The notes under the pieces: generated by a model | What the model was told of the DNA's origin: nothing | Seen by the model: the letters and a program-made list of their open reading frames with translations, nothing else | Databases searched by the model: none | Position numbers and translations under genes: made by a program | Shown: positions 18,167 through 34,012 of the stretch, in pieces | How the letters are laid out: each line of letters begins with the position of its first letter | Position numbering within the stretch: the first letter of the stretch is position 1 | Assembly: GCF_900046475.1 (NCBI RefSeq) | Contig: NZ_FCOU01000003.1 | Location: 1-64,000, forward strand | DNA length: 64,000 bases | From: Collinsella ihumii | GTDB lineage: Bacteria > Actinomycetota > Coriobacteriia > Coriobacteriales > Coriobacteriaceae | Direction: 5' to 3'

Positions 18167-18201
18167 ACCAAAGTCCTTTCCCCGAAGCCCATCGAAACCA
18201 A

Positions 18202-18238
18202 AAGGGGACCGTCGAACCAGTCGACGGCCCCCTTGCCC
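18202..18238 (-). promoter_or_regulatory. Stable hairpin in the cstA leader (possible attenuator)
   Basis: On the minus strand AAGGGGGCCGTCGA pairs with TCGACGGTCCCCTT around a short loop, followed by TTGGTTT, about 35 bases before the cstA start. The stem plus partial U-tract resembles an attenuator or an mRNA 5'-stabiliser. Function is inference. Confidence 0.4.
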
Positions 18239-19332: not shown

Positions 19333-19369
19333 GTACATCCTCCGACGACCCCGTGTCACACCGTCTGCG

Positions 19370-20053
19370 CTACTCCTTGGCGCCATACTGCTCGTAATAG
19401 GCGTCGATGGCCTGCTTGAGGGTATCGTCGATCACCACGCGGCCCGCGACCTCGCGGTTGTAGAGGTGCTCGACGACCTCGGCCATGGACACGATACTCG
19501 CCACGGGGAACCCGTACTTCTCCTGGATCTCGCGCTGCGCGGTGTGCACGCCGCCCTTGCCGACCTCCATGCGGTTCAGGCTCACGATCAAGCCCTTGAC
19601 CTCGACATCGGCCGCGGCCTTGAGCTTGGGATAGGTTTCGTCGATGGACTTGCCGGACGTGGTGACGTCCTCGACCATGATGACGCGGTCGCCATCCTTG
19701 AGCTCGTAGCCGAGCATGCCGCCCTTGTCCGCGCCGTGGTCCTTGACCTCCTTGCGGTCGGAGCAGTACTTGACCTCCTTGCCGTACAGCTCGTGCAGCG
19801 CGATCGAGGTGACCACCGACAGCGGGATGCCCTTGTAGGCTGGCCCGAAGACGACGTCGAAATCGAGGCCGAAGTTGTCGTGGATGGCGCGCGCGTAGTA
19901 CTGGCCGAGGCGCTTGAGCTGCTCACCGGTCACATAGGCGCCCGCGTTCATGAAAAACGGAGACTGGCGGCCGCTCTTCAACGTGAACTCACCGAACTTG
20001 AGCACGTCGGACTCCACCATAAACTCGATGAACTCTTGCTTGTAGGCCTCCAT
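19370..20053 (-). CDS. pyrE: Orotate phosphoribosyltransferase
   Basis: Cytosolic enzyme that joins orotate to PRPP to form OMP in de novo pyrimidine synthesis. 227 residues with substrate loop segments (GEFTLKSGRQSPFF, FGPAYKGIPL) and the PRPP-binding signature VIMVEDVTTSGKS. ATG 20053 has GGGAGG seven bases upstream; in-frame ATGs further 5' lack a site and fall outside the conserved domain. It is separate from other pyr genes and is followed by a lipoprotein gene. Confidence 0.95.
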   Translation of the reverse strand: MEAYKQEFIEFMVESDVLKFGEFTLKSGRQSPFFMNAGAYVTGEQLKRLGQYYARAIHDNFGLDFDVVFGPAYKGIPLSVVTSIALHELYGKEVKYCSDRKEVKDHGADKGGMLGYELKDGDRVIMVEDVTTSGKSIDETYPKLKAAADVEVKGLIVSLNRMEVGKGGVHTAQREIQEKYGFPVASIVSMAEVVEHLYNREVAGRVVIDDTLKQAIDAYYEQYGAKE

Positions 20054-20190
20054 GGCAATCCTCCCGGACATCTGACGCCGCGCGACGGCGGACATGAACT
20101 TCATGCCCCATCATACCAGCGCCGCCGCAACCGTGCGCGATGTATGGGCTCCTCGCCTCGGGTACCGGCCCGCCGCTCTCGCGCTGCCGC

Positions 20191-20457
20191 GATGGGTTGA
20201 AACGAACCCGTCCCCAATCAACCCGTCCCCGAGCACCCAAAAAACGTGTATATCGAGTTTGGTGCGATTTTTCGGTGCCCTTTGCCCACATGCGCCGCAC
20301 CCCTCGGCATTTGCCCAGTTGTTTCCTGCGGAAATGCTGAGGGGTGTAGCGGTGGTGGAGAGGTGTGCCTCAAAAATCGCACCAAACTCAGCCTACTTTC
20401 TTTATAGGTTTTAACTAAAACGGAATTTTATGCACTTTTGTGATGGGAATATACACT
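20191..20457 (+). repeat. Compound nested-palindrome repeat, copy 1
   Basis: A ~267-base element with an inverted, nearly identical copy at 61789-62054. It begins with the GATGGGTTGAAACGAACCCG block. Outer arms AGTTTGGTGCGATTTTT (20256-20272) and AAAAATCGCACCAAACT (20372-20388) are perfect. Inner arms CACCCCTCGGCATTT (20298-20312) and AAATGCTGAGGGGTG (20332-20346) pair with one G-T. It then runs through CCTAC...TAGG and ends in GGGAATATACAC. No protein-like frame is conserved between copies. Confidence 0.85.
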
Positions 20458-20694
20458 CTATGCACTTCCAGGCGTGCCCGTGGACTTGTGCCCAACCGGC
20501 GGCGGCGGACGTGTCGAACAAAGTTGCCCGCGCGCCCGAGCAGGAAAAAATTATTTCGCACCGCAGGGTGCCAACACGTTCCCGTAAGCGTCGTGTAAAG
20601 TCCAATCTCACCTGCCTTTAACAGCGGTTTTCCTTCTGGAAAAAAATTTTCTACGGCTAGCGAAAAATGCTTGCAAATCGCCGTGTTGTTACGC
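20458..20694. other. ilvD upstream region
   Basis: No gene seen. The stretch has an A/T-rich block (AAAAAAATTTTCT at about 20640-20652) and TTGCAA (about 20673) ahead of the palindrome at 20695. Confidence 0.4.
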
Positions 20695-20706
20695 CACTAT
20701 AGTGGT
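20695..20706. promoter_or_regulatory. Palindrome CCACTATAGTGG overlapping the probable ilvD -10 region
   Basis: A perfect 12-bp palindrome containing TATAGT, 94 bases before the ilvD start. It could be an operator overlapping the -10 box; TTGCAA upstream is 21 bases away, so the -35 assignment is uncertain. Confidence 0.4.
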
Positions 20707-20799
20707 AGTACGCACCCCGTGGTGCGCATCCTTTTAACACATCGTCAGCAATGGCGGTACGGCTCCGAAGAGGGGAGCCACAAGGAAAGGAGAGATACC

Positions 20800-22443
20800 G
20801 TGACACGCGCAATCGACAAGCTCGAGCCCTTCCAGAGGGCGATCACCAAGGCGCACCTCGCCTCCACCGGTGTCGCCATCGATTCTCTGGAGAACCCCGA
20901 CAAGCCGCTGATCGCGATCGCCAACAGCTGGAACGAGATGTGCCCCGGCCACGAGCCCCTGCGCCAGCTCGCATCCGAGGTCAAGAAGGGCATCCTCGAG
21001 GCGGGCGGCGAGCCCATCGAGTTCAACACCATCGCCATCTGCGACGGTATCGCCCAGGGCCACGCCGGTATGCATTACAGCCTTCCGCACCGCGAGATCA
21101 TCGCTGACTCCTGCGAGGCCCAGATCCTCGGCCTGAACGTCTTCGACGGCGTCGTGTACATGGCCAGCTGCGACAAGATCGTCCCCGCCATGCTCATGGC
21201 CGCCGGCCGCATCAACCTGCCCGCAGCCCTCGTCTCCGCAGGCCCCTGCTGGGATGAGATCAAGCCGAGCGACTCCAAGGCCCTGCGCGCGTCCTTCCTG
21301 CGCGGCGAGGCCACCGAGCTCGACGTCATCGAGGGCACGCTCAAGTACTACACCGGCCCCGGCATCTGCCCGTTCCTGGGTACCGCCAATACCATGTGCT
21401 GCCTGGCCGAGGGCCTGGGCATGATGGTCCCGGGTGGCGCGCTGCAGCCCGCCCCCACCGCCATGCGCCGCTTCCTCGCCCGCCGCACCGGCGCCGCCGT
21501 CGTCGACCTGGTCCGCAAGGGCATCAAGCCGAGCGACATCATGACCGAGGCCGCGTTCCAGAACGCCGTGACCCTGCTCGCCTCCATCGGCGGCTCCCTG
21601 AACGCCCTGCTGCACCTACCCGCCATCGCCGCTGAGCTCGGCCTCGAGGTCACCTGGGCGCAGGTCGCCGAGACCACGAGCCGCGTGCCGCTGGTCACCA
21701 ACATCACGCCCAACGGCGATCGCTCCTGCATCAACCTGTACAAGGCCGGCGGCATCCCCGCCGTCCTCAAGACAATCGAAAAAGATCTCGACCTGTCGGT
21801 CATGACCATCAACGGCAAGACCATGGGCGAGAACCTCGAGGGCGACATCGAGATCGACCGCTCCATCATCCGCACGCAGGACGACCCCGAGTCCGTCGCC
21901 AACGGCATCCAGGTGCTCTACGGCAACCTGGCCCCCGAGGGCACGCTCGTCAAGACCTCCGCGGTCCCCGACGACCAGCACACCTTCGACGGCCCGGCCA
22001 TGTGCTTCAACAGCGAGGAGGAGTGCTTCGCCGCCTACAACGCGCACAAGATCCCCGCGGGCACCGCGGTCATCATCCGCTACGAGGGCCCCAAGGGCGG
22101 CCCGGGCATGAAGGAGCTGCACCGCGTCACCGAGATCATGAAGGGCATCCCGGGCTCCGCGGTCATCACCGACGGCCGCTTCTCCGGCGCGTCCGGCGGC
22201 CTGTCCGTCGGCTACCTGTGCCCCGAGGCAGCTGAGGGCGGTCCGATCGCCCTGGTCCAGGATGGCGACATGGTCCACATCAACCTTGCCGACAACGCGA
22301 TCTCCTTCGACGTCTCCGACGAGGAGCTCGAGGAGCGCCGCAAGAACTGGACGCCCGTCGTCCACGACTTCAAGGGCAAGGTGCTCGCCCGCTACCTCAA
22401 GGAGGTCGGCCCCGCCAAGGACGGCGCCCTGCTCGGCGCGTAA
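20800..22443 (+). CDS. ilvD: IlvD/Edd-family dehydratase, probably dihydroxy-acid dehydratase
   Basis: Fe-S dehydratase expected to make 2-keto acids for valine, leucine and isoleucine. 547 residues with N-terminal NSWNEMCPGH, the cluster-ligand region MASCDKIVPAMLM, GPCW, and the C-terminal ITDGRFSGASGGLSVGYLCPEAAEGGP block. GTG 20800 has AAAGGAGAG upstream. Some motifs (CDKIVPA, RFSGASGG) depart from textbook IlvD (CDKITPG, RFSGGT), so activity on a sugar acid, as in other family members, cannot be excluded, especially with an Entner-Doudoroff-type operon nearby. ilvE is 19 kb away. Confidence 0.85.
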   Translation: MTRAIDKLEPFQRAITKAHLASTGVAIDSLENPDKPLIAIANSWNEMCPGHEPLRQLASEVKKGILEAGGEPIEFNTIAICDGIAQGHAGMHYSLPHREIIADSCEAQILGLNVFDGVVYMASCDKIVPAMLMAAGRINLPAALVSAGPCWDEIKPSDSKALRASFLRGEATELDVIEGTLKYYTGPGICPFLGTANTMCCLAEGLGMMVPGGALQPAPTAMRRFLARRTGAAVVDLVRKGIKPSDIMTEAAFQNAVTLLASIGGSLNALLHLPAIAAELGLEVTWAQVAETTSRVPLVTNITPNGDRSCINLYKAGGIPAVLKTIEKDLDLSVMTINGKTMGENLEGDIEIDRSIIRTQDDPESVANGIQVLYGNLAPEGTLVKTSAVPDDQHTFDGPAMCFNSEEECFAAYNAHKIPAGTAVIIRYEGPKGGPGMKELHRVTEIMKGIPGSAVITDGRFSGASGGLSVGYLCPEAAEGGPIALVQDGDMVHINLADNAISFDVSDEELEERRKNWTPVVHDFKGKVLARYLKEVGPAKDGALLGA

Positions 22444-22467
22444 CGTCTGCCAATAATCGGCGACTCA

Positions 22468-22501
22468 AGCCCTGGTTGGCCCAGCCAACCAGGGCTTTTT
22501 T
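22468..22501 (+). terminator. Terminator of ilvD
   Basis: AGCCCTGGTTGG and CCAACCAGGGCT arms around a short loop, followed by TTTTTT. Confidence 0.93.
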
Positions 22502-22506
22502 AGTTG

Positions 22507-22570
22507 TGCAAATCGGGGACGTACCTGTTGCGTGCATGCATGCACGCAACAGGTACGTCCCCGATTTGCA
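22507..22570. repeat. Perfect 64-bp palindrome (GGGGACGTACC family)
   Basis: Arms read TGCAAATCGGGGACGTACCT then GTTGCGTGCA, mirrored exactly at the centre GCATGC-type core. It sits between the ilvD terminator and the ptsH terminator. Confidence 0.88.
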
Positions 22571-22596
22571 TGGCGCCGCCCGCCCCGCGGCGCATC

Positions 22597-22629
22597 AAAA
22601 ACCCCGACCGGCGAGGATGCCGATCGGGG
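22597..22629 (-). terminator. Terminator of ptsH
   Basis: CCCCGACCGGC and GCCGATCGGGG arms; on the minus strand TTTTTGATG follows. Confidence 0.9.
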
Positions 22630-22654
22630 CGCAACCATGCGATAGCGCGAAAGC

Positions 22655-22927
22655 CTACTCGCCGCAGCCGCTCTCGATGAGCTCGACGAGCGCCTTCACG
22701 GCCTCCTGCTCGTCCTCGCCGTCGGCGGTGATGACGATGGTGGTGCCGCAGGCGAGGCCCTGGGTCATGAGGGCCAGCATGCTCTTGGCGTTCACGCCGT
22801 CGCCCTCGGCGCCGGCCTTCTTGACCGTGACGTTGGACTTGAAGCCGGAAGCGGTCTTGGTGAACATGGAAGCCGGACGAGCGTGCAGGCCGGTCGCGTT
22901 GACGATGGTGGTCTCCTCAGAGTACAT
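22655..22927 (-). CDS. ptsH: Phosphocarrier protein HPr of the PTS
   Basis: 90-residue cytosolic carrier that passes phosphate from enzyme I to the sugar-specific EIIA. The active-site His15 lies in ATGLHARPAS, and the regulatory Ser region is NAKSMLALM (S49), which would be the HprK target in Gram-positive carbon control. A good AAAGGAGAG site precedes ATG 22927. It follows the leftward PTS/catabolic operon after a 109-base gap with a possible -10 (TATAGT, minus strand), so it probably has its own promoter. ptsI is not adjacent. Confidence 0.95.
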   Translation of the reverse strand: MYSEETTIVNATGLHARPASMFTKTASGFKSNVTVKKAGAEGDGVNAKSMLALMTQGLACGTTIVITADGEDEQEAVKALVELIESGCGE

Positions 22928-23036
22928 GGGAATCTCTCCTTTTCTATATTGAGCGCAAGCTCATCTGCGCCGGACACCCCTGCGGCCCGGACTATAACCT
23001 ACCCTTTACTTTACCACGTAACAGCAACGTCACGCG

Positions 23037-24125
23037 TTACACCATCTCACGAACGGCCTCATGCAGGCGCTGACGGTCAGCCGGATCGTCGCTGTTGTAG
23101 TGACGGGAGTTCACGATGTACTCCTCGATGGTGTTGAGGTTCTCCTCGGTCGGCTCGATACCAAGCTCGCCCAGCGTCAGCGGCAGGTCCATCTTGCGCA
23201 TGAACTCGCGCAGCTCCTCCTCCTTGTCCTTCAGGCCGTTGAAGTAGAGCTGGCAGAACAGGCCCACGGCGACGATCTCGCCGTGGATGGCGTCGGCCGC
23301 CTCATGGGTGAAGTGCGTGCGGACGCCGTCGTAGATGACGTGCGCGAGCTCGGACTGACGGAAGCTCTTGGTGGTGTTGGCAATGACGCCCGTGGTGATG
23401 ACGTTCAAAAACGCCATGTCGGAGAGGTTCTTGGTGACCTTGCCGGCACGGTTGTCCTCGATGGCGTCGAGCGCGATCTTGTCGAGCACGTCGTACACGT
23501 AGGCAGCCATGTTGAAGGCGGTGAAGACGTCGATCGGCGTATCCTCGAGGTGCATCTCGGGCTTGCCGTTCAGCATCTCGATCTTCTTGGCCATCGCGTC
23601 CATGACGCCCGCGGCGTTGTAGCGGTGCGGGCAGGCGGCGATGACGTCGAGGTCCATGTAGACGGCATCGATCTCGTGGTCGAAGCGCCAAGAGCGCAGC
23701 TTGCCGCCCTCAGCGGTGTACATGACGCTCATGCAGGTGAACGGCGCGCAGGTGGAGGCAGAGGTCGGGACGTTGATAGCGCCCAGGTGGGCCACCTCGC
23801 CCACCGCCTTTGCCAGGTCGGTGATCTTGCCGCCGCCGACGCCCACAATCTCGTCGCAGCCGGCCTCATGGGCCTTGGCGGCGAGCTCCTCGGCGCCCTC
23901 GTAGCAGCACCAGCCCGTCCAGATCTCGAGCTGCCAGGAGACACCGGCGGCCTCCATGCTGGGGACCAGGCGGTCCTTGACGGCGTCCCAGGAGCGCGGG
24001 CCGGCGACGATCAGCATCTTGTTGCCAAAGCGCTTGAACTCCTCGCCGAGCTGCTCGAGCAGACCCTGCTCGCAGCGAACGCGACCGGCGCCGAACTTGA
24101 TTGCGGTATCCAATTCAACTGCCAT
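23037..24125 (-). CDS. Iron-type alcohol dehydrogenase, GldA (glycerol dehydrogenase)-like
   Basis: NAD-dependent metal dehydrogenase, 362 residues. NAD-binding GVGGGKITDLAKAV and the nucleotide-phosphate loop PTSASTCAPFTCMSVMYT are typical of the GldA branch; metal ligands are probably Asp in GVMDAMAK, His in RQSELAHVIYDG and His in AIHGEIVAVGL. ATG 24125 has AAAGGAAG upstream. As the last gene of the PTS operon it probably acts on a sugar-derived polyol, ketose or triose intermediate, not on bulk glycerol. That substrate is inference. Confidence 0.82.
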   Translation of the reverse strand: MAVELDTAIKFGAGRVRCEQGLLEQLGEEFKRFGNKMLIVAGPRSWDAVKDRLVPSMEAAGVSWQLEIWTGWCCYEGAEELAAKAHEAGCDEIVGVGGGKITDLAKAVGEVAHLGAINVPTSASTCAPFTCMSVMYTAEGGKLRSWRFDHEIDAVYMDLDVIAACPHRYNAAGVMDAMAKKIEMLNGKPEMHLEDTPIDVFTAFNMAAYVYDVLDKIALDAIEDNRAGKVTKNLSDMAFLNVITTGVIANTTKSFRQSELAHVIYDGVRTHFTHEAADAIHGEIVAVGLFCQLYFNGLKDKEEELREFMRKMDLPLTLGELGIEPTEENLNTIEEYIVNSRHYNSDDPADRQRLHEAVREMV

Positions 24126-24216
24126 GATGCTTCCTTTCCCCGAAGTTGGCAATTTCTATGCACACGGTGCGGGCGAAACCCCTGCACTTCGCCCGCACCG
24201 TAGGTGCCGACTCACA

Positions 24217-24876
24217 TTAGCCGCGCAGCTCGCGCACGGCAGCGGCGGCCTCGGCGGCGATGGCCTCGACGCGGGAGAAGTCGCCGTCAGCGAACAGGTT
24301 GGGCTTGACCATCCAGGTGCCGCCGGCGGCGATGATGGCGTCGCAGCTCAAGAAGTCGCGCACGTTGTCGGTGTTCACACCGCCCGTGGGCATGAATCGA
24401 TGACCGACGAACACGCTGGCCAGGGCCTTGATACCGGCCAGACCGCCGTACAGATTCGCCGGGAAGAACTTCGTCACGTCGAGACCGCGGTTGATCATGG
24501 CCATGATCTCGGTCGGGGTGACGGCGGCCGGGATGATGTTCACCTCGTGCTCGATGCACCAATCGACGGTGGCCATGTCGTAGCCGGGGGACACGATGAA
24601 CTTGGCGCCGGCGTCGACCGCGCGCTTGCACTGGTCGAGGTTCACCACGGTGCCGGCACCGACCAGGATGTCGGGGCACTTCTCGGCCATCTCGCGGATG
24701 CAATCGGCGGCAGCGGCGGTGCGGAAGGTGACCTCAGCGGCGGGAAGGCCGCCGGCGACCAGCGCGTTGGCCATGGGAACGGCGTCCTCGACCTTCTCAA
24801 GCACCACGACGGGCACGACACCCGTCTTCTCGACCTGCTCGTAGAATCCGTTCTGCTTCATGTACTCAGTCGACAT
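24217..24876 (-). CDS. eda: KDPG/KHG-type aldolase
   Basis: Class I aldolase that splits 2-keto-3-deoxy-6-phosphogluconate (or its galacto isomer) into pyruvate and glyceraldehyde 3-phosphate. 219 residues; E48 (AEVTFRT), T76 region (GAGTVVN), SPGYD and the Schiff-base lysine K136 in VTKFFPAN. ATG 24876 has GAAGGGAAG upstream. Just downstream of the UxaA-type dehydratase genes, it gives the operon a dehydratase-then-aldolase sequence. Confidence 0.93.
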   Translation of the reverse strand: MSTEYMKQNGFYEQVEKTGVVPVVVLEKVEDAVPMANALVAGGLPAAEVTFRTAAAADCIREMAEKCPDILVGAGTVVNLDQCKRAVDAGAKFIVSPGYDMATVDWCIEHEVNIIPAAVTPTEIMAMINRGLDVTKFFPANLYGGLAGIKALASVFVGHRFMPTGGVNTDNVRDFLSCDAIIAAGGTWMVKPNLFADGDFSRVEAIAAEAAAAVRELRG

Positions 24877-24948
24877 CTTGCTTCCCTTCTCTTGTCGATC
24901 TGCCTGATTCATCTATGCAAACAGGGGCCGGATGCGGCACCGCGCGCC

Positions 24949-26118
24949 TCACGGCAGGCAGGTGCACCAGACCTCCTGGTTATGGAAGATCGAGAAATCG
25001 TTGAACCCGAAGCGCTCCGCTGCGGGCTGCTCGCCGTCGCAGACGCGCTCGAGCAGCTCGAGCAGCGAAGAGCCCAGCTCGTCGATCGTCGATGCGCCCT
25101 CCACGGCGCCCGACGCGTCGAAGTCGATGTTGTCCGCCATGCGCGCCGCGCACTCGACGTTGCCCGTCACCTTGATGACCGGTATGAGCGGGTTGCCGAT
25201 CGGCGTGCCGCGCCCGGTGGTGAAGATCAGCACCTGGGCGCCGCCCGCCGTCATGCCCGACACCGACTCGATGTCGTAGCCCGGCGTGTCCATGATCACC
25301 AGGCCGCGCCTGCCGGGTCGCGCACCGTAAGGGACGACCTCCATGATCGGGGAGGTTCCGCCCTTGGAGATGCCGCCCAGCGCCTTCTCCTCGAGCGTCG
25401 AGAGCCCGCCGGCCATGTTTCCGGGAGAGGGGTTCGCGCCGCGCACGTCGACGCCCGCCTCGGCAAAGCTGCGCTCCAGCCCGCAGACGATCCGGTAGAT
25501 ATCATCCGCCACGTCCGGGGTCGCGGCGCGCGCGGCGAGCAGGTCCTCGGTGCCGATGAGCTCGGTCGTCTCGCCGAGCATCACGGTGCCCCCGGCAGCG
25601 ACGACCGCGTCGCTCACCACGCCCGCCACGGGATTCGCCGCAAGGCCGCTCGTGGCATCGGAGCCTCCGCAGTTGGTGCCGAGCACCAGGTCGGCCAGGC
25701 CCATCTCGCAGCGCTCGGCACCCGCCGCGCGCTCCGTAAGGCCGCGCGCCAACTCGACGCCGTGCTCGATCGCGGCAGCGGAGCCGCCGCAGTCCTGGAA
25801 CGTCATGACCTCGAGCGGCTTATCCGAGCGCGAGCGCACGGCCTCGGCAAGCTCGTAGGGCTTGGTGGACTCGCACCCCAACCCGACGATGAGCGTGCCG
25901 AACACGTTCGGGTTGAGCGCGAGATTCGCAAGGCAGCGGCGCATGATCTCGATGCCGCTGCCCACCTGACCGCAGCCCTTGGAGTTCTCGACCGCCACGG
26001 CCCCGGGCACCGCATCGGCGATGCGCCGCGCGACCATGTTGGCGCAGCCGCATGTCGAGAGCACCATCACATGGTTGCGGATGCCGATGCTGCCGTCGGG
26101 TCTTCGGTACCCCCTCAT
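24949..26118 (-). CDS. UxaA-family dehydratase, large (catalytic) subunit
   Basis: 389 residues matching the C-terminal domain of altronate/galactarate dehydratases, which dehydrate hexonates or hexarates to 2-keto-3-deoxy acids. Recognisable are GYRRPDGSIGIRNHV, STCGCAN, NSKGCGQ, GLGCES, LGTNCGGSDATSGLAANP and GNPLIPVIKVTGN; the conserved cysteines suit a metal or Fe-S site. The N-terminal SAF domain is encoded by the preceding gene, and the two overlap by ATGA (26115-26118). Altronate, galactarate and sulfolactate (SuyB) dehydratases share this fold, so the substrate is open. Confidence 0.88.
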   Translation of the reverse strand: MRGYRRPDGSIGIRNHVMVLSTCGCANMVARRIADAVPGAVAVENSKGCGQVGSGIEIMRRCLANLALNPNVFGTLIVGLGCESTKPYELAEAVRSRSDKPLEVMTFQDCGGSAAAIEHGVELARGLTERAAGAERCEMGLADLVLGTNCGGSDATSGLAANPVAGVVSDAVVAAGGTVMLGETTELIGTEDLLAARAATPDVADDIYRIVCGLERSFAEAGVDVRGANPSPGNMAGGLSTLEEKALGGISKGGTSPIMEVVPYGARPGRRGLVIMDTPGYDIESVSGMTAGGAQVLIFTTGRGTPIGNPLIPVIKVTGNVECAARMADNIDFDASGAVEGASTIDELGSSLLELLERVCDGEQPAAERFGFNDFSIFHNQEVWCTCLP

Positions 26119-26408
26119 GCGCCCACCCCCGTCTTGATGCTTTCGATGTTATGGATATGCACGTACGAGCCGCGACCGACCGGCGACGTCACGCGCCCGA
26201 TGATCTGGCCGTACTTGGTGACCGTGTCGCCCGCGTCGCGCTCGATAAGGCAGATCTTGTGGAAGCGCGGGATGTCCTCGCGCGCGGTCAGCATGCAGGC
26301 GACCTCGCCGCTCTTGGTGCGCACGCAGACCTTCTCGCCCGCGCTCACCGCGTCGATAACCGTGGCGACGTCGTCCGATGCCGCCATGCGCAGCGCGCGC
26401 TTATCCAT
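26115..26408 (-). CDS. UxaA-family dehydratase, small SAF-domain subunit
   Basis: 97-residue SAF domain corresponding to the N-terminus of one-piece UxaA/GarD. It reads through DNVATVI-like, GEKVCVR and a conserved HKICL followed by GQIIGR. Separate small and large subunits are known for several members of this superfamily. Translational coupling with the large subunit (ATGA) supports a 1:1 complex. Confidence 0.85.
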   Translation of the reverse strand: MDKRALRMAASDDVATVIDAVSAGEKVCVRTKSGEVACMLTAREDIPRFHKICLIERDAGDTVTKYGQIIGRVTSPVGRGSYVHIHNIESIKTGVGA

Positions 26409-26438
26409 AGATCACAGAGCTCCCGTTTTCCTACTGGC

Positions 26439-27014
26439 CTACTGGTCGGATTTCTTGCCCAGGTGCGACAGCGGGTCCTCGAACTTCGAGAACGCGATGC
26501 CCGGATGTGCCGGCGCGATGTGCTCGCAGATCCAATCGTATGCTTCCTTCATGCGCGAGCGGCGGACCCACAGGCCCGACAGCTGCAGCACGAAGTAGAC
26601 GCGGTCGGACTGGTTGGCGTCCATCTGCGCCTGCATCTCAGGCGTGACCTCGTCGAACTGGTCGGCGGTCTTGTAGCCCATGACCTCGAGCATGAGGTCG
26701 TTGTTGCTCGCCGCCTTGAGGTTCACGCTCAAAACCTGCTCCCACGGCAGGACGATGATGTCATCCGGCTTCGTGAAGTCCGTCACGCCGTCTTCGGTGT
26801 ACTCGAACAGCGGGCCGCGGTCGCTCATCTTGCGCACGTTGAACACGACGCCCGCGATGAAGCAGACGGCAACCGCCACCGAGATGATCGGCCACACGAT
26901 GTTGCCCCCGCCCTGGGTGAAGCCCAGAGCGACGATGCACACCGCGATGACCACATACGACAGGCTGATGGCGAACAGCCTGCGCATGTCGTTATACACA
27001 ACGAGTTTGTCCAC
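26439..27014 (-). CDS. Membrane protein with bacterial PH-like domain
   Basis: 191 residues. Two hydrophobic helices (about 12-32 and 40-60) are followed by a soluble region with the look of the STM3941/YcxB bacterial PH-like fold (DDIIVLPWEQVLSVNLKAAS). GTG 27014 follows a CGAGG site. It is embedded in the sugar operon between the dehydratase and HAD genes, without an evident catalytic role. Whether it serves the pathway is unknown. Confidence 0.65.
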   Translation of the reverse strand: MDKLVVYNDMRRLFAISLSYVVIAVCIVALGFTQGGGNIVWPIISVAVAVCFIAGVVFNVRKMSDRGPLFEYTEDGVTDFTKPDDIIVLPWEQVLSVNLKAASNNDLMLEVMGYKTADQFDEVTPEMQAQMDANQSDRVYFVLQLSGLWVRRSRMKEAYDWICEHIAPAHPGIAFSKFEDPLSHLGKKSDQ

Positions 27015-27041
27015 AGGAGTAACCTCGCTTTATTTCCAAAC

Positions 27042-27761
27042 TTACGAGCGTAGGACCTCGAGGAATCCCACGACGTCGGCCAGGCTGTCGAACGAGAGCA
27101 CCGCGTCGCGGCGGATGTTCTCGCGGTTGCCTTCGGGCTGATCCAGAATCGGGTAGCCCTCGGTGACCGAATCCATATTCGTCAGATCGTCGAACACGAA
27201 GCCCGACGTGAAGCCGCCGGCATTGGCGGCACGGATGCCCGCATGGCTGTCTTCCAGCACCAGGGTGTGCGCGGGGTCGGCGTCGATGAGGGCCGCCGCC
27301 TTGAGGAAGATCTCCGGGTCGGGCTTGCCGTTTTTGACCTGGGAACCGTCCATGATGTAGGGGAAGGCGTGCGAGAGGTACTCGGCCTCCATGTACTCAT
27401 CGATGAGCGGCCGGACCGTGGAGCTCGCGAGCGCATAGGGGATCTTGCGCTCCTGAAGGTAGTTCAAAAGCTCCAGCAGGCCCTTCTTCTTGCCCACGCG
27501 GCCGTTTTGCTCCATGCGCACGGCCGTCTTCTGCTTCTTGATGTACTCGCGCCACGTGGTGACGTCCTTGTCCTCACCGAACGCGTGGCGCAGCTCGGCG
27601 ACGACCTCGTGCTCGATCCTGCCGCACAGGTGCATGTACAGGGCAGGGTTCATCTGGAACCCGAAGGCGCGGGCTGCGCGCAGATACGCCCGGTAGCACA
27701 GGCGCTCACTGTCGAAGATAAGACCGTCCATATCGAAGAGGACTGCCTGAAACGGACCCAC
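27042..27761 (-). CDS. HAD-superfamily phosphatase / phosphomutase (beta-PGM-like)
   Basis: 239 residues. Motif I is LFDMDGLIFDSE (nucleophile Asp and acid/base Asp), motif II S in ALASSTVRP, motif III K in KNGKPDPEIF, and motif IV ED in VLEDSHAGI. An alpha-helical cap lies between I and II. GTG 27761 has AAGGAG upstream. In this operon it may dephosphorylate a sugar phosphate or clear a dead-end intermediate; the substrate is unknown. Confidence 0.88.
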   Translation of the reverse strand: MGPFQAVLFDMDGLIFDSERLCYRAYLRAARAFGFQMNPALYMHLCGRIEHEVVAELRHAFGEDKDVTTWREYIKKQKTAVRMEQNGRVGKKKGLLELLNYLQERKIPYALASSTVRPLIDEYMEAEYLSHAFPYIMDGSQVKNGKPDPEIFLKAAALIDADPAHTLVLEDSHAGIRAANAGGFTSGFVFDDLTNMDSVTEGYPILDQPEGNRENIRRDAVLSFDSLADVVGFLEVLRS

Positions 27762-27859
27762 GTCGAGCTCCTTTTCGTTCGAATACCCGTTACAAAAGAT
27801 AAGGCCTGCGCCCTCCTGCGGGTGCGCGGAGAGGTGCAGGCCTGAAAGATCGAAGGCGC

Positions 27860-28852
27860 TTAGGCCCTGATCTCGTTCACCGGCTCCTCGCCGGCGACGA
27901 AGCGCTCAACATCGCCAACGCACTTCTCGCCCATGCCGCGCAGGCACTCCTCCGTGTAGGCGGAGATGTGCGGGCACACGAGAACCTTGGGATGGTTGAA
28001 GTACGGATCGTCGGCGCGCGGCGGCTCGTCGTGCATGACGTCCATCGCGAGGCCCTTGACCGTACCGTCCTCCAGGGCGGCCAGCATAGCAGGCTGGTCG
28101 ATGAGGTCGGCGCGGGCGTTGTCCACCACGTAGACACCCTTCTTCATCTTGGAGAGGGCATCGGCGTTCAGGATGTGGAACGACGTGGGGTTGAGGTCGG
28201 CGTTGAGCGTCAGGATGTCGCAGTTGGAGACCACGGTGTCGAGGTCGGTGTACTGGAAGTCGACGCCCTGGGCGCGCAGCCCCTCGGCCCACTCGTCGCG
28301 CTGGACCGGGTCGCAGGCCAGGACCTTGAGGTCGTAGCCGCGGGCCAGGATCTCGACGACGCGGGTGCCGATGTTGCCGCAGCCGATGATGCCGAGGGTC
28401 TTGCCGGACACGCCGTTGCCCACAAAGGAGGCACGGTCGGCCCAACGTCCCTCGTTGGCGGCCACGTGGGAGTCGCTCACCTGACGCATGCAGTCGAGCA
28501 GCAGCGCCACGGCGCCCTCGGCCACGGCGTCGCGCTCGACGAGCGGCGGCACGGTGGTCAGGATGCAGCCCGTCGCGTTGCAGGCCTTGACATCGACGTT
28601 GTTGTAGCCGATGCCGTGGCGCGAAAGCAGCAGCAGGTCGGTCTTGTGCTCGAAGAACTCAGCGTCGAAAAACGGGGTCACCGAGGAGATGATGACGTTG
28701 TAGTCCTTGAGGGTCTCGGCCAGCTCGGCGCCGTGGGCGTCGCCCGCCACGCGGACACGCTCGACCGTGCCGATCTTCTCAAGGCGCTCCATCTGATCGG
28801 GGAAGCGGCGCCCGAACGACGAGGAGTTAACGATTGCGATGCGATATTCCAT
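27860..28852 (-). CDS. D-isomer-specific 2-hydroxyacid dehydrogenase
   Basis: 330 residues, NAD(P)-dependent. The nucleotide motif is GCGNIGTRVVEI and the catalytic Arg-Glu-His set is in NARADLID, MHDEPP and CPHISAYT. The second Arg-region motif reads NARAD in place of the common NTARG. In this operon it may reduce a 2-keto sugar acid or oxidise a hydroxyacid substrate. It shares the strand with the PTS genes and follows EIIB by 44 bases. Confidence 0.88.
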   Translation of the reverse strand: MEYRIAIVNSSSFGRRFPDQMERLEKIGTVERVRVAGDAHGAELAETLKDYNVIISSVTPFFDAEFFEHKTDLLLLSRHGIGYNNVDVKACNATGCILTTVPPLVERDAVAEGAVALLLDCMRQVSDSHVAANEGRWADRASFVGNGVSGKTLGIIGCGNIGTRVVEILARGYDLKVLACDPVQRDEWAEGLRAQGVDFQYTDLDTVVSNCDILTLNADLNPTSFHILNADALSKMKKGVYVVDNARADLIDQPAMLAALEDGTVKGLAMDVMHDEPPRADDPYFNHPKVLVCPHISAYTEECLRGMGEKCVGDVERFVAGEEPVNEIRA

Positions 28853-28896
28853 CTAAGTCGCGCATCCTATCTGATCGCAGGTTCAGTTCAAACGGA

Positions 28897-29391
28897 CTAC
28901 TTGCCGCACTTGGCCAGAGCGCCAGCCAGAGAGACGTTCTCGGAGGACGGAATCTTCTGGAAGTAGACGGTCACGCCCGCATCGCCGATAGCCTTGGCGA
29001 TGTCGGCGTCGTCGTCGGTCAGGCCGACGGACTCGATGACCTTGGTGGAGCCGGGCTTGATGGCGATGCCGCCAACGTTCAGCTCCTTGATGGGCACGCC
29101 GCCGTCGACCGCGACCTTGGCGTAGGCCAGGGACTTGAAGATCAGCGCGACCTTGTCGTCGCCGAACTGGTTGGCGTTCCACTGGTCGACGAGGCCCTGA
29201 GCGGAGTAGACCTTGATCTTCAGACCACCGGTGGACTGGGTGGACTCGTAGATCTCCTTCATGAACTCATCGTTGGCGGTGGCGTCGTCGACAACGTAGG
29301 CGGCGTTGGTGCCCTTGCCCTTGGTCCACACCTGCATGACCTGGCCGTGAACCAGACGGTCGTCGATACGCGCGAGGGTGATCTCTGCCAT
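28897..29391 (-). CDS. PTS mannose/fructose/sorbose-family EIIB
   Basis: 164-residue cytosolic EIIB. The phosphorylated His is H15 in IDDRLVHGQV, the family signature. It takes phosphate from EIIA and gives it to the incoming sugar during IIC/IID transport. Fourth of the four PTS genes in transcription order. Confidence 0.94.
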   Translation of the reverse strand: MAEITLARIDDRLVHGQVMQVWTKGKGTNAAYVVDDATANDEFMKEIYESTQSTGGLKIKVYSAQGLVDQWNANQFGDDKVALIFKSLAYAKVAVDGGVPIKELNVGGIAIKPGSTKVIESVGLTDDDADIAKAIGDAGVTVYFQKIPSSENVSLAGALAKCGK

Positions 29392-29470
29392 GATAGTTTC
29401 TCCAATCCCTAGTGGGTTACTAAAAAGGGGTACACACCCCCTATAGAGATATGTACCCCAAATCGGACAA

Positions 29471-29878
29471 TTAGCCCTTGAGGTTGGCGCGGTTGATGAG
29501 GCGAGCGCCCATCTTGCCGGCCTCGACGGCGGTCGCGGCGAGCTCGTGGCCGTCCTCGGCCATGTCGAGCTGCTGGATCGTCTCGATGAGCATCGGCATG
29601 TTCACGCCGAGGATGACGTCGCAGTCGACCTTGCCGACGCAGGCAAGCGCGACGTTGGAGGGGCTGCCGCCCATGAGGTCGCACATGATGATGGTGTGCG
29701 CACCGGCCTCCTCGTTCTTCTCGACGATCTCGAACGCCTTGGCGCGCAGATCGTCGACGGACTGACCGGGCACGAGACCCAGGGCGTCAACGTTCTCCTG
29801 CTCGCCCATGATCATCTCGGCGCTCTTCTTGAGCTCGATGCCGAACAGGCCGTGGGTGATGATGAGGACCTTGTTCAT
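29471..29878 (-). CDS. PTS mannose/fructose/sorbose-family EIIA
   Basis: 135-residue EIIA with active His9 in LIITHGLFG and the DLMGGSPSN motif. It accepts phosphate from HPr (gene at 22655-22927). Confidence 0.94.
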   Translation of the reverse strand: MNKVLIITHGLFGIELKKSAEMIMGEQENVDALGLVPGQSVDDLRAKAFEIVEKNEEAGAHTIIMCDLMGGSPSNVALACVGKVDCDVILGVNMPMLIETIQQLDMAEDGHELAATAVEAGKMGARLINRANLKG

Positions 29879-29911
29879 ACGTGTGCGCTCCTTATTCGCT
29901 CAGAATCTCTC

Positions 29912-30838
29912 TTAGAGGATGCCGACGACCGCGAGGACGATCAGGATGACCGTGAAGCCGAGCATGGCCTGGGTCACCTTCATGCCCTTCTTCTGGAAGA
30001 AGAAGAACAGGGCCATAACGGCGATCAGCGGCAGCAGGCCGGGCAGGATGCCGTCCAAGGTCTCCTGGAGGACGAAGGGCCTACCGGACAGGTCGGCCTC
30101 GATCGGGGTGGACAGCTTGACGTAGCTTGCAGCCATGCAGCCCATCATGAACAGGCCGAGCACGCCGAGCGCGTCGATGATGGACTTGATGCGGCCGCCC
30201 TTCATGACCTCGAGCGCGGCGCGACGGCCCATGGTGTAGCCCATGCGGGTGAACAGGTAGCCGTAGATGAAGGTCGCGGTGGCGAAGCACACGAACGGCA
30301 TGACGGCGCCCAGCGGGTTGCCCTCCTGGCACAGGCCCAGGAACAGGGAGATGCAGATGTACTGAACGGTACCGGAGTCGATGGAGTCGCCGACGCCGGC
30401 CAGCGGGCCCATCAGGCCGATCTTGGTGTTCTGGATCATGGAGGCGTCGAGGGCGGGCTCGCCGGCGTTCAGGGCCTTGGCGCGCTCCTCCTCGAGGGAG
30501 ACGGTGATACCGGAGATGATACCGCCGCCCCAGACGGCCTGGGTGTTGAAGAACTGCAGGTGACGCTGGTAGGCCTCGCCCAGGAACACGGGGTTCTTGT
30601 AGAGCTTCTTCAGCACGGGCATAAGGCCGAAGCACAGCGAGGGCGCGATCATACGGTCGAAGGTGTGCGGCACCTCGTTGCACCACCACCAGCGGAACCA
30701 GACCTTCATGATGTCGCCCTTGGTGATCTCGTCGGGCTTGTTGGCCTCGCCGAGCATCAAACGGGGATCGGCATGGATCATGCCGTCTTCATCGAGGTAA
30801 TCGTGATAGTCCTGGGAAAGCTTCTCGACTTCGCTCAT
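29912..30838 (-). CDS. PTS mannose/fructose/sorbose-family EIID
   Basis: 308-residue membrane component. It shows the family motifs GDIMKVWFRW, MGPLAGVGDSID and a C-terminal hydrophobic hairpin. GAAAGGGAA precedes ATG 30838. It forms the translocator with EIIC. Confidence 0.94.
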   Translation of the reverse strand: MSEVEKLSQDYHDYLDEDGMIHADPRLMLGEANKPDEITKGDIMKVWFRWWWCNEVPHTFDRMIAPSLCFGLMPVLKKLYKNPVFLGEAYQRHLQFFNTQAVWGGGIISGITVSLEEERAKALNAGEPALDASMIQNTKIGLMGPLAGVGDSIDSGTVQYICISLFLGLCQEGNPLGAVMPFVCFATATFIYGYLFTRMGYTMGRRAALEVMKGGRIKSIIDALGVLGLFMMGCMAASYVKLSTPIEADLSGRPFVLQETLDGILPGLLPLIAVMALFFFFQKKGMKVTQAMLGFTVILIVLAVVGIL

Positions 30839-30880
30839 GAGTATGTTCCCTTCCTTTCTATGAGATATGGGGCCTGGCGA

Positions 30881-31642
30881 TTAGGCTTCGGCCTTCGTGG
30901 TGAACATGTTGTAGCAGAAGGCGATGATGACGCCGAAGATTGCCCAGGTGATCATGGTGATGCTCAGGCCGGCCCTGGTGGTGAGAACGACCAGGAAGTA
31001 AGCCAGGAAGAAGAACACGAGGAGCTTGCGGCTGCCGATAACGTGCATGGTGATGGCGATACCGAGAGCGGCAAGACCACCGGAGACGACGTCGAGGGCA
31101 TGCAGCACGGGGCCGTTGCTGATGGCGTTCATAACGTCGGAGATGACCGGGGCGCCCAGGTACAGGGCGATGGTGATCGTCGGGACGAACAGCGCGAAGG
31201 CGAAGATGGTCGGCATGACGGCGATCCAGAAGACCAGACCACGGGAGTCGGCCTTGACGGCGCACTGATCCATCTTGTTCACGGCGATGGTGTTCAGGAA
31301 GAAGCGGAGCTGGTACAGGTAGCTACCCATCAGGCCGACGGGCACCGCGATCGCGACTGCGGCCTCGGGGTCAAGGTCGCCCAGAATCGCGACGGACACG
31401 GCGATGGCCGATGCCACCGCAGGCTCGGAGGGCATAGCGCCGCCGGGGGCGACGACACCCATGTAGATGAGCTGGATGGTAGCGGTGACGACCATGGCCT
31501 GGTGCATATCGCCCAGGATGAGGCCGACCCAGAAGCCCGCCATCAACGGCGAGAAACGCATGGTGAGGGTAGCATAACCAAGCGCGCGAGATTCGATTGC
31601 CGCCACGAAGAGGGCAATCAGCAATGCTTGCACAATTGTCAT
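30881..31642 (-). CDS. PTS mannose/fructose/sorbose-family EIIC
   Basis: 253 residues with about seven membrane helices, typical GAMPSEPAVASAIAVSVA and LGDMHQAMVVTATIQLIYMG segments. ATG 31642 is set by AGGAAAGG upstream; the longer open frame is excluded. It is the first gene of the leftward operon and faces the RpiR regulator across a 548-base AT-rich promoter region. Confidence 0.93.
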   Translation of the reverse strand: MTIVQALLIALFVAAIESRALGYATLTMRFSPLMAGFWVGLILGDMHQAMVVTATIQLIYMGVVAPGGAMPSEPAVASAIAVSVAILGDLDPEAAVAIAVPVGLMGSYLYQLRFFLNTIAVNKMDQCAVKADSRGLVFWIAVMPTIFAFALFVPTITIALYLGAPVISDVMNAISNGPVLHALDVVSGGLAALGIAITMHVIGSRKLLVFFFLAYFLVVLTTRAGLSITMITWAIFGVIIAFCYNMFTTKAEA

Positions 31643-32144
31643 AATGCCTTTCCTTTCTCTCCTCTTTTCCGGAAGATGGTGGAGTGCGTCTTCTCCATCC
31701 CTCCCCGTTGCCCCAACGAGGCCCCTCGTTAAGACAAACCTTGGGCTTTTCGCCCCTTTGACCAAAAGTCTATGTGTTTTTCTGTTGTACTTGAAGAAAT
31801 TATTTTTCTTTCTGGCGAACGGTCTTTGCCTTATCGCCTGCCGAATTTAGACGTTTTTACGAAGTGTTTTGTGCTACCCGCTCATTGCGCGGGGTCTTTT
31901 CTTACTTGTGACATAATTTTTGCAGATAATAGGCTATTTTTTAATTGCTAGGCCCGATATGTCATTTGCCTGTTGATGTGATGCTCCTGTGACGTTTTCA
32001 AAACGGACAAAGTGATTATTGCCGTATACAGACCGTTTACCACCGTTCAGCCGGTTGACCTTTTGTTATGTAGGCTGAAAAATAATTTTTTTCTTCGAGA
32101 GCCCTCTGTGCGCAAGAATATTTGAGTACACTTGTGGCATAAGC
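31643..32144. promoter_or_regulatory. AT-rich divergent promoter region between the PTS operon and rpiR-type gene
   Basis: No gene seen in 500 bases. The sequence is far richer in A/T than the flanks (many TTTTT/AAAA runs, 31780-32100). It has the odd-length palindrome CGTTTTCAAAACG at 31993-32005, which resembles a cre-like or regulator half-site pair. The composition and the location argue for control sites for both directions. Confidence 0.5.
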
Positions 32145-32166
32145 TCATATTGATATAGCAATATGA
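32145..32166. promoter_or_regulatory. Inverted repeat TCATATTG-N6-CAATATGA, probable RpiR operator
   Basis: A perfect 8-bp inverted repeat with a 6-base spacer, 25 bases before the regulator's ATG. TTGAGT (32122-32127) lies about 18 bases before CATATT, so the palindrome overlaps a plausible -10 box, suiting autoregulation. Assignment to RpiR is inference. Confidence 0.5.
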
Positions 32167-32190
32167 ACCGCTGACCAGTCTGGACCATCA

Positions 32191-33042
32191 ATGGCACGCA
32201 ACACTGTTCTCCTCAAGATCAAGTCCCTCATGCCCTCGCTCTCGACCAAGGAGCAGAGCATCGCGAACTTCGTGCTCGAGGATCCCCGATTCGCCTCCCG
32301 CATGACCATCAACGAGATGGCGGCACAGCTCGGCGTGGCCGACTCCACGGTGTTCAAGTTCACCAAGAAGCTCGGGTATCGGGGCTTTCGCGATTTCCGC
32401 ACCGATCTGCTCGCCGAGGAGTTCGATCCGCAGATCTCCATCCACGAGAACGTGACGCCCGAGGACACCCCGGTCGTCGTGGCGCAGAAGATCTTCCATT
32501 CCAGCGCGAAATCCCTTCACGACACCCTGTCGCTGCTCAACGAGCACGACTTGGATCAGGCGATTGATTTTATGCTGGGCGCCTCGCACATCTCCCTGTA
32601 CGGCTGCGGCGAATCGGGCGTCATCGCGCTCGACGCCTACCAGAAGTTCCTGCGCTCGCCCATCCCCTGCCACTTCATCACCGACACGCACATGCAGCTC
32701 ATGCAGGCCGCGCAGTTGACGCCCGACGACTGCGCTATCGTCATCTCGCACACGGGCGCCACGCGCGAGATGATCGAGATCGCCCGCATCGCCCACGAGG
32801 CCCGCGCGCGCGTCATCCTCATCACGAGCTACCCCTCGCAGCACATCTCCGAATACGCCGACGTCACCTTCGTCTCGACCTCGGACGAAACGGGATACCG
32901 CCCCGAGTCGCTTTCGTGCCGTTTCGCGCAGCTCGCCATCATCGATACGCTCTACACGGCGCTCATGTTCCGCGTGCAGGGGACGGCCGAATCGCTGCGC
33001 AAGATACGCGAGGCCATCAATCTGACCAAAGTGGACGATTAG
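32191..33042 (+). CDS. RpiR-family transcriptional regulator (HTH-6 plus SIS domain)
   Basis: 283 residues. An N-terminal helix-turn-helix (about 1-75, TINEMAAQLGVADSTVFKFTKKLGYRG) is followed by a SIS sugar-phosphate-binding domain (about 125-260, ISLYGCGESG, VISHTGATREMIEIA). RpiR regulators sense sugar phosphates. Divergent from the PTS operon, it is the obvious candidate to control it, with a phosphorylated intermediate as likely ligand. ATG 32191 has only a weak ribosome site. Confidence 0.92.
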   Translation: MARNTVLLKIKSLMPSLSTKEQSIANFVLEDPRFASRMTINEMAAQLGVADSTVFKFTKKLGYRGFRDFRTDLLAEEFDPQISIHENVTPEDTPVVVAQKIFHSSAKSLHDTLSLLNEHDLDQAIDFMLGASHISLYGCGESGVIALDAYQKFLRSPIPCHFITDTHMQLMQAAQLTPDDCAIVISHTGATREMIEIARIAHEARARVILITSYPSQHISEYADVTFVSTSDETGYRPESLSCRFAQLAIIDTLYTALMFRVQGTAESLRKIREAINLTKVDD

Positions 33043-33053
33043 CGAAGCGCGCC

Positions 33054-33147
33054 GATGGGTTGGTTGGGGACGGGTTCGTTCCAACCCATTTTCGTTTGCA
33101 CGCCGTGATCATAGATGGGTTGGAACGAACCCGTCCCCAAACGACCC
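33054..33147. repeat. Two facing copies of the ATGGGTTGG...CCAACCCAT repeat
   Basis: Copy one (33054-33088) forms its own hairpin, ATGGGTTGG with CCAACCCAT, around GGGGACGGGTTCG. Copy two (33114-33147) is inverted: GATGGGTTGGAACGAACCCG then TCCCC. Together they fill the space between the convergent regulator and ABC genes and could act as a bidirectional terminator. Confidence 0.75.
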
Positions 33148-33160
33148 CTAGGCGTGCTTG

Positions 33161-33928
33161 CTAGCCGCTGTAGCGGGCCAAGAATGCGCGCGTGCGCTCC
33201 TGCCGGGGGTTGCCGAACACCTCTGCGGGGGCTCCCTCCTCGACGATCATGCCGCCATCCATGAAGACGACGCGGTCGGCCACATCGCGCGCGAACGCCA
33301 TCTCGTGCGTCACGATGATCATGGTGATGTCCTCCGCCGCGAGCTGCCTGATGACCTTGAGCACCTCTCCGGTGAGCTCGGGATCGAGCGCGCTGGTCGG
33401 CTCGTCGAAAAACAGGATGTCGGGGTTAAGCGCCAGGGCGCGCGCGATGCTTGCGCGCTGCTGCTGGCCTCCCGAGAGCTGGCAGGGAACCTTGTCCTCG
33501 CAGCCGGTGAGGCCCATCTTGGCGATCAGGGAGCGCGCCTGCTGCTCCACCTCGGAGCGGTCGCGCTTTTGCACCACGATCGGCGCGTCCATGATATTGC
33601 GCAGCACCGTCATGTGCGGAAACAGGTTATAGCTCTGGAAGACCAGCCCGAAGCGGCTCTTGGCGCGACGCATGGTGTCGCCTCGCACGTAGCTCACCTG
33701 CCCGTCCGCGTCGGTCGACGCCACGACGAGGTCGCCATAGGACAGCGTGCCCGCGTCGATCTGCTCAAGCGTCGTCGCGCAGCGCAGCATCGTCGACTTG
33801 CCGCCGCCCGACGGGCCGATGATCGCCACCACCTCGCCCGGCTCGACCGCCAGCGAGATGTCGCGCAACACGACGTTGTCGCCGAATGCCTTGCTCACAT
33901 GCTCCATCGAGAACACCGCATCAGCCAC
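33161..33928 (-). CDS. Polar amino-acid ABC transporter ATPase (GlnQ/ArtP type)
   Basis: 255 residues. Walker [11 protein letters not shown]-loop [12 protein letters not shown], signature [15 protein letters not shown], Walker [13 protein letters not shown], switch His in VTHEMAF. It energises import with the permease and binding protein upstream. GTG 33928 is chosen because AAAGGAG is located seven bases upstream; in-frame ATG 33907 is internal. Confidence 0.94.
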
Positions 33929-34012
33929 GGTACGCTCCTTTCCTGCTATCGGCTCGCGCCGCCCTGCCATGCACGCCCGTCCTCCATGGCCAAGCGGAGC
34001 GGAACGGATTTC

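Follow-up and report, generated by a model that had tools for sequence, protein, structure and literature searches.

A PTS-linked UxaA-type dehydratase operon of Collinsella ihumii and a predicted kinase-free Entner-Doudoroff branch for sugar acids

In a 64,000-nucleotide stretch of the Collinsella ihumii genome (assembly GCF_900046475.1, contig NZ_FCOU01000003.1, positions 1 to 64,000; hereafter the window), eleven genes between positions 23037 and 31642 bring together a mannose-family phosphotransferase system (PTS), a two-subunit dehydratase of the UxaA family, an aldolase for 2-keto-3-deoxy-6-phosphogluconate (KDPG), two dehydrogenases and a phosphatase. The best explanation for this operon, to which we assign a probability of about 0.62, is a PTS-fed, kinase-free Entner-Doudoroff branch for sugar acids. 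According to this scheme, the mannose-type enzyme II (EII) would import an aldonate, D-gluconate being the best single candidate, and phosphorylate it, presumably at C6, with phosphate supplied by HPr. Two unrelated dehydratases would then lead to the same product, KDPG; an IlvD-like enzyme encoded beside the operon would make it from 6-phosphogluconate, and the UxaA enzyme from another 6-phospho-aldonate, perhaps of altronate-like (2S,3R) configuration. The KDPG aldolase, clear as to family, would release pyruvate and glyceraldehyde 3-phosphate, while the D-isomer 2-hydroxyacid dehydrogenase (2HAD) and the Fe-ADH family enzyme may interconvert keto- or epimeric 6-phospho-acids, which is the least certain step, and the HAD enzyme would be accessory.

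The minus strand carries all eleven genes, no more than about 100 bases apart, and the reading frames of the UxaA subunits (UxaA_N and UxaA_C) overlap by 4 bases. The identical gene order was found again in six other Collinsella loci, and because the same genes recur in the same order the arrangement is not due to chance; at locus L063, UxaA_N was absent from the gene calls and was recovered in the same genome by tblastn. A preliminary description of this DNA had proposed an eleven-gene operon with a mannose-family PTS and a KDPG aldolase, serving a sugar or sugar-acid pathway; all of this held, the pathway being one for sugar acids. The eleven genes are nevertheless not the whole unit, since the operon runs on to an HPr gene on the same strand, its last gene, followed by a terminator-like hairpin, and the wider unit takes in a divergent RpiR regulator and the IlvD-like dehydratase, all three of which had been overlooked. 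The features are as follows:

30881..31642, minus strand: PTS mannose/sorbose-type EIIC (AgaW/EII-Sor family matches)
29912..30838, minus strand: PTS mannose-type EIID (TIGR00828, 155 bits)
29471..29878, minus strand: PTS mannose-type EIIA (PF03610, EIIA-man)
28897..29391, minus strand: PTS sorbose/mannose-type EIIB (PF03830, PTSIIB_sorb)
27860..28852, minus strand: 2HAD (2-Hacid_dh family)
27042..27761, minus strand: HAD-IA phosphatase (HAD family match)
26439..27014, minus strand: small membrane protein (weak STM3941-family match, 29 bits against a cut-off of 40)
26115..26408, minus strand: UxaA small subunit, UxaA_N, with SAF domain (PF08666)
24949..26118, minus strand: UxaA large subunit, UxaA_C (GD_AH_second and GD_AH_C), its start overlapping the small-subunit stop
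24217..24912, minus strand: KDPG/2-keto-4-hydroxyglutarate (KHG) aldolase, Eda (TIGR01182, 231 bits, cut-off 156)
23037..24119, minus strand: Fe-ADH family dehydrogenase, glycerol-dehydrogenase-like (Fe-ADH match)
22655..22927, minus strand: HPr, last operon gene (HPr-domain match)
22601..22630, minus strand: terminator-like hairpin ending the operon (hairpin scan)
22467..22497, plus strand: terminator-like hairpin behind the IlvD-like gene (hairpin scan)
20800..22443, plus strand: IlvD/Edd-family dehydratase, putative 6-phosphogluconate dehydratase (family scans and synteny)
20544..20651: two operator-like GAAA-AT-TTTC sites upstream of the IlvD-like gene (starts 20544 and 20639)
31796..32093: two operator-like sites between the RpiR gene and the operon (starts 31796 and 32077)
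32191..33042, plus strand: divergent RpiR/HexR-type regulator with SIS domain (domain matches)

The IIC and IID proteins are of the sorbose/mannose type, with scores under the named-family cut-offs. Eda is the sole aldolase of the KDPG/KHG family above cut-off in the genome, and its TGG motif and lysine, which we take to have functional roles in Eda, align with those of the E. coli enzyme; the whole genome has three HPr-domain genes, the operon's HPr among them. The earlier label "GldA-like" for the Fe-ADH enzyme could not be kept, as it scores far under the glycerol-dehydrogenase cut-off (177 vs 336 bits).

The UxaA pair has the SAF, GD_AH_second and GD_AH_C domain set of the UxaA/GarD superfamily, and in a PDB search the GarD structure 6u7l was its only match. 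One contig-level search of genomes with the UxaA large subunit as query yielded 65 loci, and a maximum likelihood tree was built from tblastn pieces of at least 300 query residues (84 pieces, 83 different), leaving out L121 as well as L083, whose UxaA_C is split over two frames. The genes around UxaA were mapped in 28 loci (27 of L058-L084, plus L101), the remaining loci of the 65 being covered by tblastn alone; L165 is the genome of L065 and L166 that of L069, neither being counted twice, and L070 is the genome of L038. In the tree of 83 rows, the window's large subunit falls within a clade of 27 rows (support 100/99), with members from Coriobacteriia, Bacillota and Coprothermobacter. PTS EII genes lie within 8 kb of UxaA in 24 of the 27 rows, window included, the exceptions being L069, a metagenome-assembled genome (MAG) whose only PTS is a separate one 8.6 kb off, and L078 and L082, whose contigs measure 3.5 and 3.2 kb. 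None of the 56 UxaA rows outside the clade, several of them from short loci, has EII genes within 10.5 kb. Similarly, an Eda-type aldolase (for KDPG or its galactonate counterpart, KDPGal) is near 23 of the 27 clade rows, window included, vs 2 of the 56 outside, one of these two being the aldolase of this very operon viewed from a neighbouring UxaA. The clade is further marked by Lys47 (numbered from Met1), present in 26/27 of its rows and in at most 1/13 near outside rows, and outside the top three residues at that position in the 43 far rows, as well as by a clade-specific C-terminal NQEVWC tail (NQEVW). As only 16 of 396 Coriobacteriia genomes carry it, the clade is sporadic in this class.

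The division of UxaA into two genes, mentioned in the preliminary description, is real but not unusual, and its standing as an oddity was rejected, since two adjacent "UxaA family hydrolase" genes were seen in all four plasmid regions opened (4/4). One of the loci, L131 on a conjugative Salmonella plasmid, carries, together with a split UxaA, a 2-keto-3-deoxygluconate permease and an aldolase of the dihydrodipicolinate synthase (DHDPS) family, and is a permease-fed counterpart without a PTS. In Thermoanaerobacter wiegelii (L083:9992-11160), UxaA_C is in two frames (103 and 261 amino acids) beside intact DgoD and aldolase genes, reflecting either a frameshift or a sequencing error. The C. ihumii genome itself holds two more UxaA homologues outside the PTS clade (215106-216239 and 594322-595488; L041 and L042); one sits with short-chain dehydrogenase/reductase, amidohydrolase-like and DHDPS-like genes, so labelled from their sequences, and in the tree the other is placed with E. 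coli GarD.

Across the relatives, the EII type varies (Man, Gat or Ula) and UxaA is constant, with 2HAD in most and Fe-ADH in all of the Coriobacteriia loci. Man-type EII genes are found in the window and in the Collinsella and Olsenella loci, the latter with Gnd, and stand with UxaA and 2HAD in Lactobacillus (L077) and E. gallinarum (L101); the 2HAD is conserved in the Coriobacteriia, Lactobacillus (48%) and Enterococcus (37%) loci. Gat-type EII genes occur in Enorma (L070), Olegusella (L071), L164 and most Firmicutes loci, while an Ula-type (ascorbate) EII replaces the mannose type upstream of the same core in L064, L068 and L163. These Ula-type loci also carry a protein nearest to phospho-furanose lactonase (240 vs a 630-bit cut-off; structural relatives 3msr and 3ovg), a combination that suggests import of an aldonolactone. 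In the Olsenella MAG L069 (G194), the RpiR, Gnd, HAD, membrane protein, UxaA, Eda and Fe-ADH genes are kept, and the PTS and 2HAD genes are gone from between Gnd and HAD, through either a real loss or an assembly gap.

The smallest cluster, in Clostridium sartagoforme (L072), consists of a regulator, an aldolase, GatABC, UxaA_N and UxaA_C. Here only the PTS could add or remove a phosphate and the aldolase family takes 6-phospho substrates, therefore the acid reaching UxaA is most simply a phosphorylated one. To our knowledge, all characterised UxaA/GarD enzymes use free acids, and the preliminary description had posed well the puzzle of a PTS delivering a phosphorylated acid to such an enzyme, offering two ways out. 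One, a dehydratase that accepts the phosphorylated acid, is predicted to be right from the minimal C. sartagoforme cluster and is the one that we favour from gene context. The other turns to the HAD phosphatase; the corresponding free-acid route, in which the HAD enzyme removes the phosphate after import, UxaA acts on the free acid and a kinase encoded elsewhere rephosphorylates 2-keto-3-deoxygluconate (KDG), draws on the HAD gene in the operon, on a different Cof-type HAD in the Enorma and Ula-type loci and on the free-acid habit of the known enzymes. We hold it to be unlikely; it would futilely waste phosphoenolpyruvate and ATP, once dephosphorylated, the acid could reach the KDPG aldolase only by way of a KDG kinase, and no kinase was found in any of these clusters, and Gnd, a 6-phosphogluconate user, is in the cluster of the Olsenella-type loci. 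Moreover, no homologue of the operon HAD was detected at 1e-8 within 10.5 kb of UxaA in the C. sartagoforme, Lactobacillus, Fonticella, Pelosinus and Olegusella loci, and E. gallinarum has a single one, 26% identical and 8.4 kb away. The HAD-IA phosphatase is not conserved beyond the Man-type loci; it would be dispensable to the pathway, probably with a house-cleaning role.

Since altronate is the substrate of known UxaA and galactarate that of GarD, an altronate-like 6-phospho acid is our guess for the substrate of the PTS-linked enzyme. The pair might instead be another lyase altogether, such as a sulfolactate sulfo-lyase like SuyAB, a two-subunit member of the same superfamily, in which case the sugar-acid reading would be wrong; a sulfolactate-dehydrogenase-like protein is indeed found near UxaA in one locus (L083; 308 vs a 500-bit cut-off). 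This seems highly improbable given the aldolases near 23 of the 27 clade rows and the DgoD-like galactonate dehydratases of ten Firmicutes-type loci (Coprothermobacter included), which are 51-54% identical to E. coli DgoD, the one scanned being above the galactonate dehydratase cut-off (633 vs 311 bits). There also seems to be no obvious way for a PTS to phosphorylate and feed sulfolactate.

The second dehydratase of the sugar-acid scheme, the IlvD-like protein, is encoded convergently to the operon, with synteny kept in Collinsella; in Enorma its gene is inside the operon, with Fe-ADH on one side and, on the other, a HAD gene and then UxaA. It was rejected as a branched-chain biosynthetic enzyme, as it reaches 519.9 of the 618 bits required by the IlvD equivalog TIGR00110 and the true ilvD, 41% identical to it, is elsewhere in the genome, preceding ilvN and ilvC (labels assigned from their sequences). 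Its score against the Edd equivalog TIGR01196 (279.7 bits, cut-off 708) is likewise too low for assignment, although the same function could still apply. All 15 Coriobacteriia loci with enough flank (the window, L058-L061, L064-L071, L163 and L164) carry the IlvD-like gene (8) or Gnd (8), with both in L059; L062 and L063 stop short of the IlvD position and were not counted, and L163 and L164, fetched after the pattern had been noticed, both conform. The one Olsenella-type Gnd scanned is above its equivalog cut-off (641 vs 427 bits). That the two genes replace each other suggests that both products consume 6-phosphogluconate, pointing to this compound as a node of the pathway, and the IlvD-like enzyme would act as a 6-phosphogluconate dehydratase in an Edd-like route.

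A shared operator ties this gene to the operon. The motif GAAA[AT]3-9TTTC occurs four times in the window, twice before the IlvD-like gene and twice between RpiR and EIIC, against a mean expectation of 0.0 in 20 Markov simulations. In the whole 2.84-Mb genome, the 13-base sequence GAAAWWWWWTTTC is confined to two places, one upstream of each unit, and its reversed-sequence control gave 0 matches genome-wide; a longer operator pattern with one mismatch allowed returned the same two units, its reversed control also giving one forward and one reverse match. Because the pattern was derived from these very sites, its rarity, not its discovery, is the test. An operator-like site is likewise upstream of the IlvD-like gene in L058, L059 and L060; in L059 it separates IlvD from a divergently transcribed gene for an NAD-type 6-phosphogluconate dehydrogenase, and the intergenic site is also present in L058 and L060-L063 and absent from L059. 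Through these sites the RpiR protein would bind and control both the operon and the IlvD-like gene. Within the operon, EIIA and EIIB are separated by a terminator-like hairpin of 15 pairs and a T tail (29459-29427, minus strand), which might serve for attenuation or as a stabilising stem; an Rfam scan of 19000-34000 gave zero matches. Beyond the IlvD-like gene lies a gene for a CstA-family carbon starvation protein (16322-18271, minus strand).

As to the substrate, C. bouchesdurhonensis P3296, which bears the operon (L059/G017), ferments gluconate in API 50 CH (PMC6182551). Among six operon-bearing genomes, P3296 included, none (0/6) has a GntP permease or a gluconokinase (TIGR01313 or TIGR01314) above cut-off, sub-threshold matches being present, and five lack a match to 6-phosphogluconate dehydrogenase (PF00393), the exception being G017. 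Gluconate fermentation without GntP or gluconokinase over cut-off supports import by a PTS, for which this operon is the best candidate; gluconate-specific uptake and phosphorylation by this PTS is predicted from this indirect evidence.

The two dehydrogenases raise a different possibility, namely that the PTS imports 2-keto-, 5-keto- or 2,5-diketogluconate and that 6-phosphogluconate arises by reduction of their 6-phosphates through 2HAD and Fe-ADH, a step for which pseudomonads have KguD. A probable 2-ketogluconate reductase is among the structural relatives of the 2HAD, and the Fe-ADH family includes glycerol-1-phosphate dehydrogenase, which acts next to a phosphorylated carbon, with Gnd or IlvD downstream. 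Such a pathway leaves UxaA unexplained, and operon-bearing P3296 is recorded as fermenting neither 2- nor 5-ketogluconate (API 50 CH; PMC6182551), a result that sets back ketogluconates as the main substrate and makes this route, too, a rather improbable one. For the Entner-Doudoroff branch that we prefer, the 2HAD would act on a 2-keto or 2-hydroxy 6-phospho-acid; the roles of 2HAD and Fe-ADH are the weakest part of the scheme, both steps, like the UxaA substrate, being predictions.

Several observations weigh against this preferred scheme: (i) its enzyme activities are predictions; (ii) the same API result leaves 2HAD and Fe-ADH without an obvious substrate; (iii) gluconate by itself would not require UxaA; (iv) FGGY kinases scoring 129-196 bits exist in operon-bearing genomes, and the absence of KdgK/DgoK near UxaA was dropped as a discriminating test because no homologue is near the 56 outside rows either; (v) the IlvD-like protein is nearer to dihydroxy-acid dehydratase (DHAD; 520 bits) than to Edd (280 bits); (vi) the Lactobacillus L077 and E. 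gallinarum L101 loci have no aldolase nearby; (vii) the Collinsella operator pattern gives no match in L064-L071 (Olsenella, Enorma and Olegusella loci); and (viii) of three further species, which may or may not carry the operon, C. aerofaciens ATCC 25986 is weakly gluconate-positive (PMC6463082), C. massiliensis is gluconate-negative, 5-ketogluconate being the one acid of the three that gives a positive reaction (PMC4149003), and E. timonensis has all three in what appears to be its list of negative reactions (PMC4149031).

The closest known system is D-glucosaminate catabolism (dga) in Salmonella, with which the operon shares a mannose-family PTS and an aldolase. In that system, which Miller and colleagues reportedly described in 2013, a mannose-family PTS is said to yield a 6-phospho sugar acid that is converted to 2-keto-3-deoxygluconate 6-phosphate (KDGP) and split by an aldolase. 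The comparison, already drawn in the preliminary description, is apt; dga has the pyridoxal phosphate (PLP) ammonia-lyase DgaE, whereas Collinsella has two dehydratases and dehydrogenases instead, and no PLP family appeared in domain scans of nine operon proteins and the regulator, or of IIC and IID, scanned separately. As in the Entner-Doudoroff pathway (Edd/Eda), a KDPG aldolase and an IlvD/Edd-superfamily dehydratase stand under one operator, but here the dehydratase is nearer to DHAD, phosphate would come from the PTS and not from gluconokinase, and there is an extra UxaA dehydratase. The latter shares its domains with altronate dehydratase UxaA and galactarate dehydratase GarD and differs from them in forming a separate PTS-linked clade with Lys47 and the NQEVWC tail; no uronate isomerase or altronate oxidoreductase (UxaB) family of the hexuronate (UxaCAB) pathway was seen among the operon proteins scanned. 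The Firmicutes relatives resemble the DgoD/DgoA galactonate pathway in that a galactonate dehydratase and a KDPG/KDPGal-type aldolase accompany their UxaA and Gat-type PTS, yet no DgoK kinase was found in the Firmicutes-type loci, and Collinsella has the IlvD-like gene in place of DgoD.

More broadly, and at slightly less than even odds, the 27-row clade may be a separate class of 6-phospho-aldonate dehydratases, with a clade-specific Lys47 beside a conserved Gly-Cys motif and interchangeable EII (Man, Gat or Ula), often paired with a second dehydratase of complementary stereochemistry (IlvD-like in Coriobacteriia, DgoD-like in Firmicutes), forming a kinase-free Entner-Doudoroff funnel in several phyla. 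The component families are already known. In the open-licence literature, most subscription journals lying outside its scope, nothing was found that names altronate-6-phosphate or a PTS-linked UxaA acting on phospho-acids, nor was an idonate phosphate named in the papers listed, among which 6-phosphogalactonate (galactonate-6-phosphate) does appear. Within that literature such a clade appears new, although this does not prove its novelty. Should the enzymes function as predicted, this UxaA-type dehydratase would represent a phosphate-accepting kind not described before, and the whole clade would be mis-annotated as altronate or galactarate dehydratase. For gut Coriobacteriia, clostridia and lactobacilli, the scheme gives testable functions to proteins that carry no label beyond "dihydroxy-acid dehydratase" or "UxaA family hydrolase", and it points to a possible route for gluconate in genomes without detected gluconokinase or GntP and mostly without 6-phosphogluconate dehydrogenase.

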